A DNA stretch of 64,000 bases, taken from Gonapodya prolifera JEL478 (Eukaryota > Monoblepharomycota > Monoblepharidomycetes > Monoblepharidales > Gonapodyaceae). Position numbers and translations under genes: made by a program. The stretch is taken from positions 263,971-327,970 of the forward strand of contig KQ965734.1 of assembly GCA_001574975.1 (NCBI GenBank), written 5' to 3'. The notes under the pieces are model-generated. The model had not been told where the DNA came from and did not search any database. It worked only from the letters and a program-made list of their open reading frames with translations. Positions 1-30,877 of the stretch are shown piece by piece. Every line of letters begins with the position of its first letter. Position 1 is the stretch's first letter.

Positions 1-3000
1 GTCGCCTGAGCTTTCCGGCGCTCCTCCATGGCTCGCAAAAGTGTATCCTGAATGCTCCCAGACCGCGACAGCGGAAGCGGGACTGGGGTGTCTCCGCCGT
101 CAACCGAGCGCACACCAACTGGCGCCAGGCTCGATCTTTTTGCAAAATCGGGCGGGCTAGTCGCCGAATGGGTCGAAGGAATGCTGAGAGTCGCTGGAGC
201 GGAACCAGCCGTTACTTTTGCTGCCAGCGCCGATCCCAGCTCGACGTCGACAACAGTGATACGAATCTCATCTTGGGCAGGTTCGGCCTCCAGTACTCCT
301 TCCACACTTGCTCTCTTCCCCTTTCTTCCCTTTTTGGCCTTCCCGCCTTTCGCTCCATCCGTCTTTCCTTGGGCAGCTTGCACCTCCACCACCGTCTCGG
401 CTGTCACCGGAGTCGTATCGTCACCCCATGACGACGTCCCCCTTCCCGCCCACGACGATGGCCTCTCCGCATTTGACGACAGACTGTCCGCCCACGACGG
501 CAGTCTGTCGCCCCACGATGAGGGTCGCGACGATGACCCTTTCTGTGCGAATTCGGGAGAAAGAGTCCCATCAGCCGGAGACGCATACGGCACCCCTGAT
601 GGAAACCGCGTGGTGGAGATCTTGCCAAGCGGGGAATGAGCAGAACGTGACGGCTTCTGCGAATTCTTCCCTCTCGAAGAATGAGCAGCGGGTGAAGGCT
701 TTAATTGCCGCGGCAAAGGCGGAGATGTGATCACGGCGGGGATAAGTCCATTATTCTTGGATATACGCGCGGTTGGCGGACTGTCGAGGATTCCGGTTGC
801 GTCATCACCCCCACTCGAGGGTGCAAGCACATCTGCTGCCATTGTTTCCGAGCTCACAGGTGAATCTACATCGACCACAGACATTCGAAAGACTGTCTTT
901 TCCGTCCCCATGGACTCAGCGGCACTCTCTCGTTTGGACCTTTTCGTTATCACGGTGAGTGAGCCGGCACGGGCACTCCGATCACTGGTGATGGAGGAAA
1001 CATCCGATTTGTCGTCCGAATGTCGTAGCTGGAGTGTTGCAGGTTGTAGCGATACTGGAAAAAACTCTTTACAGAGGATGACGAACTCACATAAACGGTT
1101 CGGTAAGCAACCAACCCAGCTCCCGCAACCATTCCCAGAACTAGAACACCACCTACAATTATGCCCGCTATGGCGGAAACTGGCAAAACCTGTTCGAATC
1201 GATGGCTTAGTTCACCTGACAATGGGCAAGCATGAAACTTAAAAGTGACATACCCCACCACCTTGTCCCGTCTGCGTGCTCCCCGCCGCCGCCGCTACAC
1301 CCGTCGCTATTGGTCCTGCCGGCTTCCCCTTTGCCAGCATGGTTTCCTTCCAAGCACACATCTGATCTTGTGGCGTCCCGCTACCGACTGAACTTGGATT
1401 CTCCGCAGTGAGTTCGCCATACAGAAGATCCGCGTAGCTTGACGAGACGAGGCTGGATGGCGCAAAGCACGGCTGAGTGACTTGGTCGAACGAAGCGTCC
1501 TGCAGTGCGATGGCGGCGAAGCGGGGGAGCAGACGAAGCCGGGGGACAAAATTGGAGGTGTAAAACGAGGTGACGTTGATGAACGTGTTGGACTGCGACA
1601 GGGTCCGGGGAACAGATATGGTCGGCTGACGGCTCGGCAGTTTGACATCTGCTGCTGCCAGCACTCACGTTCGCTCCGGTGTATTTCTCGTACCCCCACC
1701 CAACATTTGGGAGCTGCACCACAAATGCCATTCCGACAGAGCTGTCCGCGACCCACTTTGCCCACCCATCGACGCTTTTCCAAAACGCGTCCTCTCCCGA
1801 TGCCCACGTGCACGAACTGCCGCGGAGATATGAGATCACGAGGTAGTCGAACTTGGACGGCATCAATGTGAGTAAAGTGCCTGGAGAAGGTCCCAGGAAC
1901 GAGGAGGGGAAGTCGCAGGTTGGGAGGGTAGCTGTGCGGTGGAGATGAGTTGCACGATAGATGTACCGCGGGGGAACGTGAGAAACCGCACCAGAGAGTG
2001 TAAAGTTGGTGGGTCGGCGATAGTACCCGGCCGGGGTGTATAGAGTCAGCCAACTCTGCTGAGGAGGAGTCCAGCCCTGCACCTCCCCGGTTAACACCTT
2101 GTCTGACAATGTGGGCGACTGTGGTGCCCCGCCAGAGGCAACGGAGCCGTTGGTCGCCACAGTTGCATTCTGAGTATTGGTTTGGGCAACCCAAGCTGTA
2201 CCGTTGAATACAGCGGCAACGCCTAAAGAGGTCGAATTTCGTATTGGTCGTTAGTGTGGACTTCTGATAAAGCCGGTGCATGGGCACCAGTACGTCCCGA
2301 GGGGACATACATTGAGCTTCTCAAAACTTACCGGACACATTGGCAACTGTGCCGGACAAAGGTGGCGGGTCTTGGTGATCAAACAGGGCTCGTATAGTGT
2401 TGACAAATGCCCTGTACCCTTCGGGGGATTCCGGAATTCTAGATGAAAGGTGTTAGAAACAAACACAGACAGTGCCAAGGAAAGAAAACCGTTCGCTCAC
2501 GTTATCTCCAAATTAAGTCCGTCGAACACGGCATCGTCAAAAGGTCTCGGTGTATCAAGAAGAGTGCGGTCAAAGAACATTGCATAGATTTGATAGGCGG
2601 AGCGGTTGCCGTCGGACTCTGTAAGAAGACTGAGCGTCTTTGGAGCTGAAGATTTTCGTTGGTTTTGATCGTGAGGGGTTGCCGTTTGAGCGTTGCTGTG
2701 ATGGAAAGCTCACCAAGAGAGAGGACCACACGCTTCCCCAAGCTCTGGCAGTTTTTAACGTCCCTCGCCAGCTCTGCGCAGTGCAAAAGTGTGCTGCCCC
2801 CATATTTCGCCTCGTATCCAGCGTACGCGGTCGTGCAATGCATCGACAAATCCATCGACGGCGCTCCCTTGGTTGCGAAATGGTCCAGGACATATTGAAC
2901 ATGGATGTTTGAATACGAAGCGGATTGGCACACGGATGCGAGAGAGGATTCGGTTTTGGATGCGTCCAGGGAATTAATCCTGTTCTGGCCCCATGTCGCA

Positions 3001-3273
3001 AACAACTGGATTTGGAGTGCGGAGGAAATGATGGCAGTAGAAGGGCCGGCAACGGGCGTTTGCAAATGAGAAAACGATCCGTCATTACACTCAGGAACCT
3101 TGCATGGAAGAAAGCCGGCGTCGTGGGCACAAGTTAATGTTCACCTGAAATGGCAATCGCGGATTCTTTGGAACCGGTGGGACAACGCCGGACACGAGAC
3201 TTGCAAGTGCTGCTAAGAACGCGAGTAGCAGAACGCCGCGTGCTCGGGCTTGCGTTGGTGACGTAGTGCCCAT
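1..3273 (-). CDS. Membrane-anchored GH18 (class III chitinase-like) receptor, probable pseudoenzyme; 3' end outside window
   Basis: Multi-exon minus-strand gene. The ATG at 3273 is chosen over an in-frame ATG at 3384 because a signal peptide follows it directly (hydrophobic GVLLLAFLAALASLVSG). Intron 1 is about 3144-3099. The ectodomain matches class III GH18: ATWGQN near the N-terminus, then CAELARDVKNCQSLGKRVVLSLG (2750-2690), then RPFDDAVFDGLNLEIT (about 2540-2500). The family motif DGxDxDxE reads DGLNLEIT, so the general-acid Glu is Thr and two Asp are Asn and Glu. After the GH18 region comes about 250 residues of extracellular sequence, one TM helix (about 1190-1100, AGIIVGGVLVLGMVAGAGLVAY), an intron about 1090-985, and a Ser/Pro-rich cytoplasmic tail of more than 300 residues open to position 1. 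A role as a chitin or glycan sensor is inference; the fold and missing catalytic residue are seen. Confidence 0.8.
400..545 (-). repeat. SSW-type short peptide repeats in the cytoplasmic tail of the GH18-like protein
   Basis: In the reading frame of the receptor tail (codons with low coordinate divisible by three) the protein carries four or more degenerate copies of a Ser-Ser/Pro-Trp-Gly/Ala-Asp/Gly unit: PSSWGDR, LPSWADS, PSSWAGR, TSSWGDD. Regular Trp in an otherwise low-complexity Ser/Pro tail could form a binding site; no known domain is recognised. Confidence 0.6.
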
Positions 3274-25585: not shown

Positions 25586-27140
25586 TTAAATAGACCGTTT
25601 CACCCACGCCGCAACAATTCGCGTCACGGCTTCCACATTCGGCAAGTTCGTATGGGTACCAAGCTCAGGCGTGAAAAGGCGTCCTTTGAGGCCAGAAGAG
25701 CTTCCCGGCTCTCCGACTTCCACAACATAGAGCGAGCCGTCGCGAGCTGACAACGGGGGCGGGGGTGGTTCTTTGACTCGCGAGTCTGCCGGTTTTCCCG
25801 CCAGAGATATGAATATTTCCAGGGCATTTGCCAGCGGAATGTCCGAATCGCGAATGCCATGGACAATGAGAATGTCCAGTCGATTCGATGGTTCAGGCCC
25901 GGCTTGTCCATCCAACGTGGCAGCAGCATACTCTTTGAGCCTGTGCATTTCAGTTTCGGTGTCCCAGCCTTCCGAGACCCATTCCTTGTTCTTGTCCCTC
26001 AGGCGTTCACGACCCACGATCTTGTGGAGAGGTGAAATGAAGGAGAGCGGGTGTGTGGCAACTGCGGAGGCGATTGATGAGTAAGGGCAGAACAGTAAGA
26101 GACTGCCAGGGAGTGGAGGTGATGAGGATTGGGGCCGTTGTCGTGGATCTGTGGCGATTGGCTTGTGGAGATGTCGGTAGAGGAAGGAGGCCGGGCCGGT
26201 ACCGAGGGAGTGGCCAAAAATTACAACTCGTGAAGGGGGCACTAAGAGAACTGTGAAGTGATTCTTTTCCAAAAGACACCGCGACAAGCATTTCTCACCT
26301 CCTTTCGAAAGCGCCCATTCCCAAGCGGCCAGGGCGTCTTCTTGCAGACCTCGCTCAGTTGGTATGACCTTCTCCGAATCGCCAAACCCACGATACTCGA
26401 CGACCAAAATATGGGCGTCCGGAGCAACTTTCTTGATCATTTCGATTGCAGCAATTCGCAGGGGGAATCCTCGGTCCCACGACGATCCATGAAAATAGAT
26501 CCAGAGCTTTGTCCTCGATGGGAGTGGTGGTGCGGCCGTGGTAGCGGAGACTGGTGTAGACGGAGGCGGCGTCTTACCACTCAGCGACGCATCAAAATCG
26601 GCGTCTGTTTCGCAAGCCTGATGCTCGACAGGAATGATGTGCCAAGCGGAGATGCGAACATCGTCAGCAGTCGTGATCGAGACGTTTCTTGCCGAGCCGG
26701 CTTTTAAAAGAAGACAATTGTACGATATTTCACACACTATGCTTGGCCGTTGAGGAAAGCTCACCTCTCCATTTCCCAACCTCACAGGGGTCATTCAAAT
26801 CGTACCAGAAGGGTCGCAGCCAGTTTCCATAAACAAGAGACCGCTGTATGTTCGCTAGGAACGAGTCATCGCGGTGTTCTGGTCGATTACTGTCTTCCGA
26901 TCGCCTTTGATGCGGTCTGAAATCATCAGATTTGCTCCTAGTGACTGGGATCTCATCCCTGCGAGGAATGAATGGCTGACACTTCAACTGGCGCGGCCGA
27001 CCACGAACCAGTCCACGCGAAGGCGGTCGTCCTGTTTTTCTGCACCCCGACTTGACATGTGAGAAGCCTAAGTCTGTCTTGGCGAAATCAGACTGACCCT
27101 TTAGTGCGGCTGTGGTCGGCGGCAAAACGGCAGAACTCAT
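25586..27140 (-). CDS. Alpha/beta hydrolase, ABHD12-like
   Basis: ATG 27140 to stop at 25586; at least three exons. Intron 1 runs from GTGAGC (about 26763) to the acceptor before CCGGCTCGGC (about 26704), and a second lies near the nucleophile region. After a basic N-terminal region and NWLRPFWYDLNDP the hydrolase core shows LWIYFHGSSWDRG (oxyanion HG), VVEYRGFGDSEK, nucleophile elbow GHSLGTGP (about 26220-26200), FCPYSSIASAVATHPL, acid region VHGIRDSDIPLANA and catalytic His in GTHTNLPN. Members hydrolyse lysophospholipids or monoacylglycerols, often at membranes. A frameshifted paralogue is at 29644-30877 and a relic at 22484-22630. Two inserted Pro/Ser-rich loops (PPPSTPVSATTAAPP; KEPPPPPLSAR) distinguish it from the paralogue. 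Confidence 0.82.
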
Positions 27141-29643: not shown

Positions 29644-30877
29644 ATGGACAGCTCGTTTCAATCATCACGAGGCACTGTAGTACACATCATCCTTTGGGTC
29701 TTGGTCAGTGAGACGTGTCCACCATTCCGCGGCGAGCATTGGTCATATCTCTGATTGGAAGTCGGTCGCGTCACTCCCTTTTGTGACCCCGATTATTGCG
29801 ATCCTCTTTTTACCTCCGCTCCAACGATTTCTTATCTATGGATACGGCTTTCGGGCATTGTGGTACAATGTTCGGGATCCGTCACAACGTGGACTTTGGA
29901 GAGGTGCGCGGATTTACTGAATTACTTTGGCAAAAAGACTTGAAATGAGTCCTTTGCAGTGAATTCCACCCGAAATGTGACAATTGCAACTCGCGACAAT
30001 GTCAAGCTCTCTGGCTGGCATATACTTCCTGTTAAACATCGACCATGTCACTCTGACACTGAGTTTGATGAAGCATTGACGTCTTCCGATAGTCGTCTTT
30101 GGATATACTTCCATGGCGCGTCGTTTGACCGCGGACTTCATTTCCGGATCGATACTGTCGATATGATCAAACAGTTAGATCCTCAAGCACATTTGTTGGT
30201 CTTGGAGTACCGCGGGTTTGGTGACTCACAGTTTGTAGAACCGACTGAACAGGGACTCCGGGAAGATGCTCAGGCGGCATGGAGTTGGGCAACCTCGGCA
30301 AGAGGAGTATCACCAACTCGCATCATTCTCTTTGGGCACTCTTTGGGCACAGGGCCTGCTACATATCTTTACAGGCATCTTTTCGAGTCTCAATCCACCA
30401 AGGGGTTTGCTACTGATTTGTCCATACTCGTCGATCCCATCTGCGGTGGCAACGTATCCGATGGTCCCAATGCTGTTACCGTATCGCTTTTTATTTGGCA
30501 GGAAGTGGCTCATTCAATTTGGGAAGCGATACTTGACCGAACAGTGGGATACAGCAAGCGAATTGAGCAAACTTAGGAAGTTTGTGGCTGCGGGAAACTC
30601 ACATTCCAGCACCCCACTCAACATTTTTGTTGTTCATGGTGCACAGGATGGGGACATTCCGCTTGTAAATGGGATCGAAGTTTTTGGAGCAGCTTCAGGC
30701 TCACCTCCTGGTGTGCAAACTGAGTCGCGGTTACCAGAGCATCTAAATTCAGGTGATGGGCAGGTCTTCTCGGTTGGAGAAGGCGAAGTCAAGTTGTTCG
30801 TGACTAGATTTGGAAAGCACACGAATTTACCTAGAATAGAAGCCGTAAAGCTGGTATTGGAAAATTGGATTAAATAA
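29644..30877 (+). pseudogene. ABHD12-like hydrolase paralogue with a +1 frameshift
   Basis: ATG 29644 begins MDSSFQSSRGTVVHIILWVL; intron 29704-29760 joins to SVASLPFVTPIIAILFLPP, giving two hydrophobic segments at the N-terminus. Next come LWYNVRDPSQRGLWRG, an intron to about 29961, then NVTIATRDNVKLSGWHILPV, LWIYFHGASFDRG, VLEYRGFGDSQF, GHSLGTGPATYLYRHL (to about 30385). From there the family sequence continues one base out of frame: GLLLICPYSSIPSAVATYP (about 30400-30460), VVHGAQDGDIPL, and the His region GKHTNLPRIEAVK to TAA 30877. The shift lies in CATCTTTTCGAGTC near 30376-30390 and is too small for an intron. It could be real decay or a homopolymer (TTTT) error; everything else, including catalytic Ser, Asp and His, is preserved. 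Confidence 0.75.

Follow-up and report, generated by a model that had tools for sequence, protein, structure and literature searches.

Putative membrane-anchored pseudo-chitinases of class III GH18 descent in a fungal genome

Gene W and its predicted protein

The first 3.3 kb of the window (i.e., the whole stretch of 64,000 nucleotides that was analysed, on contig C4) are occupied by a minus-strand gene, here called W, for which we modelled nine exons (3273-3145, 3005-2714, 2645-2501, 2438-2332, 2222-1992, 1931-1669, 1625-1254, 1189-1091 and 1028-1). The last exon extends 31 bases beyond the window start, and its TAA ends at G000:C4:263940. As for all genes described here, the model follows GT-AG rules and homology: it was built from splice sites and refined by spliced alignment with the paralogs, a step that shifted the start of two exons and introduced a further intron. 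The preliminary version (which began one exon falsely at VPECNDG..., misplaced one acceptor and left one intron unspliced) was used in the first Pfam scan, the single-sequence PDB search and the first genome search, while later whole-protein work made use of the corrected one. The features are as follows.

1..3273, minus strand: gene W, putative receptor-like protein with a dead class III GH18 domain, 898 aa, nine exons; borders from comparison with six paralogs
3187..3273, minus strand: predicted signal peptide, about aa 1-29; hydropathy core at aa 13-31, cleavage site approximate
2378..3005, minus strand: GH18 part 1, aa 44-209, from WGQN to helix 4, introns within; profile match to hevamine 7-127 and CTS1 9-155
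inside GH18 part 1, minus strand: family loop GAPSMDLSMHCTTAYAGYEAKYGGSTLL, aa 90-117
2501..2523, minus strand: motif DGLNLEI plus AC, the first two bases of Thr189, which replaces the catalytic Glu; the codon is completed by base 2438
2439..2500, minus strand: 62-base intron interrupting the Thr codon
2005..2377, minus strand: helix 4-strand 5 insert, aa 210-297, two exon pieces, with sequons; bounds set by eye
1350..2004, minus strand: GH18 part 2, aa 298-481, introns within: FTLSATLPTCDFPSSFLG, DYLVISYLRGSSC, FAAIALQDASFD; match to hevamine 144-210
1103..1180, minus strand: predicted transmembrane helix, aa 517-542; Kyte-Doolittle 2.47 over 19 aa, same place in all seven paralogs
1..1102, minus strand: predicted cytoplasmic tail, aa 543-898 (356 aa), includes the intron 1090-1029
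12..56, minus strand: conserved C-terminal motif SIQDTLLRAMEERRK, aa 871-885; Q, L, AME and R invariant in all seven paralogs

The signal peptide, single membrane span and long tail named in the original prediction are all recovered by the hydropathy profile (aa 13-31 and 517-542, followed by the tail at 543-898).

The catalytic motif and its interrupting intron

Bases 2523-2501 read GAC GGA CTT AAT TTG GAG ATA AC and continue, after the intron, with A ATT CCG GAA from 2438, which gives the translation D-G-L-N-L-E-I-T-I-P-E-S-P-E-G-Y-R-A-F-V. Set against the GH18 signature DGxDxDxE, only the first of the three Asp is retained: Asn stands for the second, Glu for the third, and Thr replaces the catalytic Glu, exactly as had been claimed for DGLNLEIT (Glu to Thr, two of the three Asp changed). 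The Thr189 codon (AC|A) spans the intron (2500-2439), and an alternative splice restoring Glu had been named beforehand as the outcome that would overturn the claim. Within the 40 bases scanned from the start of the motif, no such splice turned up: of the two GT there, the first leaves AC, so that the codon is ACN and the residue Thr whatever the acceptor, while the second lies past an in-frame TGA. Retention of the intron yields ACG TGA.

Descent from class III GH18 enzymes

Searching the PDB with the preliminary W protein (phmmer) returned eight sequences at E up to 10, with yeast CTS1 as the best match (E=1.6e-11). A profile of the seven paralogs described below strengthened the match to CTS1 (3.3e-18) and aligned hevamine (about 7e-14) in two colinear stretches (7-127 and 144-210); at E up to 1, 22 of its 23 matched sequences belong to the class III/XIP/concanavalin B group, the 23rd being a sensory-rhodopsin transducer (0.89). 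The GH18 context reported around the motif is thus borne out by single-sequence and profile matches to CTS1 and hevamine, and the comparison with hevamine and XIP-type proteins, proposed along with it, finds both class III and XIP relatives. Between the two hevamine stretches W carries about 88 additional amino acids (the insert listed above, delimited by profile positions 195-281 standing opposite hevamine 127-144 only, and variable between paralogs). The last third of the barrel falls below threshold, GH18 part 2 of W having sub-threshold matches only beyond the hevamine-210 stretch.

Pfam assigned no family to W (preliminary model, E up to 10; corrected model, E up to 1), and the seven members (E up to 1) yielded seven families, all weak, of which Podoplanin scored best (E=0.0084) and several bear the names of transmembrane proteins; GH18 was not among them. 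Scanned with the Pfam GH18 model, the genome showed 33 matches, all outside contigs C4, C21 and C27 and therefore outside the family genes. Judged by the profile alignments, the W ectodomain is homologous to GH18 of the hevamine/CTS1 type (class III).

A family of seven genes

The family consists of seven gene models without internal stops in the 47.6-Mb genome, plus decayed relic sequence. In addition to W (contig C4), it includes A27 and B27 (in tandem) and C27 on contig C27, and A21, B21 and C21 on contig C21. Queried with the preliminary W protein, the genome yielded 32 exon matches (E up to 10), located on contigs C4 (W itself), C21 and C27; queried with the divergent paralog C21, it yielded 34 (E up to 1), all on these contigs as well. 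At the DNA level no near-identical second W was found in the genome, where the matches were W itself and six partial ones at 71-77%. Two short peptide patterns, searched in viral contigs and in prokaryote genomes, hit 27 and 162 stretches, respectively, with no confirmed relative in either set.

All seven members share one layout, comprising a hydrophobic N-terminus, a GH18-like ectodomain, a transmembrane stretch in the same place, followed by a tail of 179-356 aa; A21 alone has a further hydrophobic stretch in its tail (aa 687-705, hydropathy 1.94). The ectodomain tree pairs A21 with A27, B21 with B27 and C21 with C27, and the placement of W in it is unsure because of its long branch. About 1.3 kb past gene C27 (contig C27, about 352.0-353.3 kb) lies a relic related to the C type that carries in-frame stops and so displays the appearance of decay, in contrast to the intact family genes. 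Contigs C21 and C27 share matching blocks at about 80-85% DNA identity, which could be accounted for by a large ancient duplication or by hybrid ancestry.

Selection on the dead domain

Nei-Gojobori estimates for the three close pairs (A, B and C) place the dN/dS of GH18 parts 1 and 2 at 0.023 and 0.076 (A), 0.048 and 0.126 (B), and 0.046 and 0.073 (C), and that of the tails at 0.108 (A), 0.069 (B) and 0.112 (C). Values reach 0.25 in the insert, 0.20 in the juxtamembrane linker and, for the A pair, 0.275 in the transmembrane helix. The dead GH18 domain is under purifying selection in the paralog pairs; for W itself, selection is read from the family, since comparisons that involve W are saturated at synonymous sites. 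These values bear on the reading of W as a pseudogene or splice artefact, for which the derivation of the models from GT-AG rules and homology could be invoked. We regard it as extremely improbable, given the open frames, the shared introns, a dN/dS far below 1 in three pairs and a Thr that does not depend on the acceptor.

The invariant columns cluster in WGQN, in the stretch W85-119 (H85, F86, T88, A91, P92, H99, C100, A103, Y104, G106, Y107, G113, L116, L117 and C119) and in PRPFDDA.

A remodelled groove

The roles that we attach to the groove residues are general background, apart from those given in the two papers cited in the next paragraph. The positions were placed by the hevamine and CTS1 alignments and read in all seven genes (residues below are in the order W, A, B, C). 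The catalytic Glu (Glu127 of hevamine) is absent from all seven, its place being taken by T, N, V and L, as is the Asp before it (Asp125 place: E, Q, Q, Y); the Asp123 place holds N, D, D and D, and the first Asp of the motif is N in the B genes. The interrupting intron is shared: in the A and C genes it falls within the codon at the motif position of W, whereas in the B genes it falls within the next one and leaves their Val inside an exon. The split codon starts with CT in the C genes, i.e., it is always Leu, and with AA in the A genes (Asn as modelled, Lys possible). Further changes in 7/7 members affect the Tyr183 (L, R, I, R) and Gln181 (S, S, S, A) places, and the place of the LWD Trp of the -1 subsite, which we take to be hevamine residue 255, holds Q, Y, R and F in an assignment drawn from low-scoring alignments and context. 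The Gly79 and Gly80 places read A, S, A, S and P, P, S, P, and the residue preceding WGQN (Tyr in CTS1) reads T, F, Y, F and is changed in five of the seven. Gln9 is kept throughout, and two places have acquired a shared character: Gly81 is Lys in all members and Asn45 is acidic in all (D, D, D, E).

The roles of some GH18 groove residues are stated in the portions of PMC3662789 and PMC12355970 available to us. None of the seven proteins has the combination found in active GH18 enzymes (DxxDxDxE with its Glu; Tyr183 together with the -1 Trp), nor do they retain chitin-groove residues in the manner of YKL-39. A hydrolase acting through some other mechanism could point to the retained homology and to the Glu that W carries at the third-Asp place. 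It seems to us very improbable, as this Glu is Q, Q or Y in the paralogs, and neither Tyr183 nor the -1 Trp survives in any of the seven.

The same positions bear on whether the inactive barrel has kept the ability to bind chitin or chitin fragments, as a chitin- or GlcNAc-binding sensor or wall tether. In its favour, dead GH18 proteins may keep or gain sugar binding, the tamarind lectin TCLL being described, in the available part of PMC3662789, as lacking key active-site residues and binding GlcNAc at two other sites. Moreover, chitin synthase matches are many in the genome and come within about 11 kb (contig C27) and 20 kb (contig C21) of the nearest family gene, and the two groove positions with shared new residues are what a kept pocket would be expected to have. 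Against it, Gln181, Tyr183 and the -1 Trp are altered in 7/7, and differently by subfamily, and Asn45 and Gly81 have given way to charged residues, unlike in YKL-39, which is described as chitin-binding still. We therefore hold this reading to be unlikely, though the foremost among the alternatives; GlcNAc binding at another site, by analogy with TCLL, is possible. The alignments suggest a remodelling of the old groove, in which two new residues came to be shared, and not its preservation for chitin. An acidic residue at the Asn45 place combined with Lys at the Gly81 place in all seven would fit either a new pocket or a plug resembling the salt bridge described for narbonin (in the part of PMC3662789 seen). 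Thus, of the carbohydrate-binding sensor put forward in the original prediction, the non-enzymatic part is strengthened, since seven paralogs share the loss and three pairs show purifying selection, while the chitin groove no longer has its original form.

An active class III copy was sought elsewhere in the genome and set aside, the pattern DGxDxDIE having zero places, in a search from which introns or stretches outside the searched sequence could hide one. A wider motif pattern matched eight places (three in the reversed control), four of them of the DWE type, three of which fall at PF00704 matches; among those on contigs C114, C119 and C148, the motif lies in an open frame only on C119, in a low-complexity protein unlike GH18. 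Separately, a distinct GH18-like protein, which has a hydrophobic stretch near its N-terminus and bears the motif DGFNEDFE, is encoded at G000:C36:308000-310300.

The insert and the cytoplasmic tail

The position of the insert recalls XIP-I, a dead class III GH18 that inhibits xylanases, those of the GH11 type via an elongated helix 4-strand 5 loop (according to the portion of PMC3662789 available). W has about 88 aa at the place of this loop, and XIP/XAIP are among the PDB matches, so that the barrel and insert might bind a hydrolase, the organism's own or a foreign one, instead of a sugar, as a membrane-anchored protein ligand or inhibitor. We consider this quite unlikely, because the insert is poorly conserved in the family, the C pair having a far shorter version (36 aligned residues), and an inhibitor would have no need of a 179-356-aa tail with a conserved end.

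This end is conserved in an otherwise divergent region: the tail of W is 18-28% identical to those of A21, B21 and C21, and [IV]QxxLxxAMExR closes the tail in all seven members. Within its 15 residues no amino-acid change occurs inside any close pair, and the C pair also has no synonymous change. The pattern AMEERR occurs at seven places in the genome (two in the reversed control), three of which are the family genes W, A21 and A27; the other four family genes are unable to match it, because the B genes have AMEERN and the C genes AMERRR, and the remaining four places, judged by eye, did not resemble relatives. The PDB holds no relative of the motif among the search results, which gave one chance match (E=1.3). 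In our view the motif resembles WH2. A WH2/actin-binding reading was nevertheless not supported by Pfam (WH2 is not among the families of the seven members, E up to 1) or by the PDB.

A passive, non-signalling adhesin or spacer would be in keeping with the sequons of the ectodomain (seven in W, 8-15 in the other members) and with a Pfam scan devoid of known signalling domains. Against it stands a C-terminal motif conserved in 7/7, and we rate it as improbable, even if the W ectodomain taken by itself would also fit a passive adhesin or an anchored inhibitor.

A candidate receptor or sensor

We reason that W is a single-pass surface pseudo-chitinase, most likely a receptor or a sensor of the wall-integrity type, to which we assign, from sequence comparisons, a probability of about 0.5. 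That the protein is not an enzyme and probably a receptor is well supported: a dead enzyme kept by selection and joined to an intracellular tail probably senses or binds rather than digests, and a receptor or sensor agrees with layout, selection and tail end alike. We infer the surface location (from hydropathy), the ligand binding, the signalling and the partner. Against a receptor stands the absence of a recognised signalling domain from the Pfam scans (of W, and of the seven members, with weak families only).

Under the receptor or sensor reading, the ectodomain would retain the class III GH18 scaffold after the loss of catalysis and of the original chitin groove, and would bind an extracellular ligand (a glycan or a protein) via the remodelled groove and family-specific loops. 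The binding surface may be formed by the strand 2-helix 2 loop (consensus GAPsMdfSxHCS..AYpGYe..GyTLL), the invariant Lys at the Gly81 place and the acidic residue at the Asn45 place, possibly joined by the helix 4-strand 5 insert. The signal would then be relayed inside by [IV]QxxLxxAMExR, a putative docking site for a cytoplasmic partner.

Relation to known proteins

The nearest precedent is CHRK1, a tobacco receptor-like kinase that likewise combines a GH18 ectodomain with a receptor layout. Its ectodomain is of class V type and is followed by an intracellular kinase, whereas that of W is of class III type, with a non-kinase tail ending in a motif of its own, in a fungus; Pfam found no protein kinase domain in W, nor in the families listed for the seven members. 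CHRK1 is reported to lack a glutamic acid and chitinase activity, with a fusion protein at the plasma membrane (in the part of PMC10573068 available), although its ectodomain is predicted to be active in the accessible portion of another study, which counts 91 plant GH18-kinase sequences (PMC5485988).

CTS1 and hevamine, the best sequence matches of the ectodomain, are active enzymes, unlike the membrane-anchored W, which is without the catalytic and subsite residues. TCLL, XIP-I, XAIP/haementhin and concanavalin B resemble W in being dead class III folds with changed active-site residues, but their PDB matches to W are weaker than that of CTS1; to our knowledge, they are plant proteins without a transmembrane helix or such a tail. 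Fungal wall sensors of the Wsc/Mid2 type possess a signal peptide, a glycosylated ectodomain, one transmembrane helix and a cytoplasmic tail. W differs from them by its GH18-like ectodomain and has no WSC domain by Pfam.

In the open-access literature, at the level of titles and abstract starts and among the matches listed, we found no fungal dead-GH18 receptor. A survey of fungal chitinases mentions an inactive Cts7 as well as GH18 domains devoid of active-site residues, and the word "transmembrane" is absent from its main text as available (PMC8042737). For R. globosum, chemotaxis to GlcNAc is reported with mechanisms that are poorly understood, "receptor" being absent from the main text of that source in its available form (PMC12115818).

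A bolder, speculative proposal, to which we give little credence, is that the seven genes belong to a receptor family of flagellated fungi not described so far: a class III chitinase would have been turned into a receptor of zoospores or germlings, directed at products of chitin breakdown or at the surface of a partner, and would signal by way of a new docking motif at the C-terminus. If true, it would be a candidate for the missing receptor in chytrid chemotaxis to GlcNAc, and the family would supply a concrete gene set for the sensing of substrates by chytrid zoospores, described as poorly understood in the part of PMC12115818 seen. As dead GH18 receptors are known from plants (CHRK1), a separate conversion of class III in a fungus would be an independent case of an enzyme turned receptor.

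Genome context and neighbouring genes

An IFT57 match in the genome exceeds the cut-off (among 14 controls, none over and three below), and there are 36 Chitin_synth_2 matches (best 2.6e-176), the weak ones among which mean little because four of the 14 controls pass the same cut-off. IFT57 and the chitin synthases fit, at the level of these profile matches, a fungus with flagellated cells. The chitin synthase matches near family genes lie at 305-307 kb of contig C27 and 310-311 kb of contig C21.

Divergently from W, a plus-strand gene (window 4143 to about 7512) encodes a hydrophobic N-terminus, leucine-rich repeats (PF13855, E=0.008, below cut-off), a transmembrane-like stretch (VVAIAILGGFFLYRRR) and an SH3-like domain (PF00018, E=0.0028 in the unaltered frame, below cut-off), and to judge from these features it looks like an LRR-TM-SH3 receptor. 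Docking of the W tail to this SH3 was considered and dismissed, as the tail of W has no class I or class II PxxP motif (0 and 0), and the short flanks of the paralogs contain no LRR relative (best E 0.23). The A and B tails have two to three class II motifs and the C tails one to two of class I, counts matched by shuffled tails in 0.05-0.25 of cases, except for A21 (0.008). Farther along the window, frames at 25589-26794 (minus strand) and 29944-30573 (plus strand) resemble alpha/beta hydrolases (Abhydrolase_6, E about 2e-5 to 3e-5, just below cut-off).
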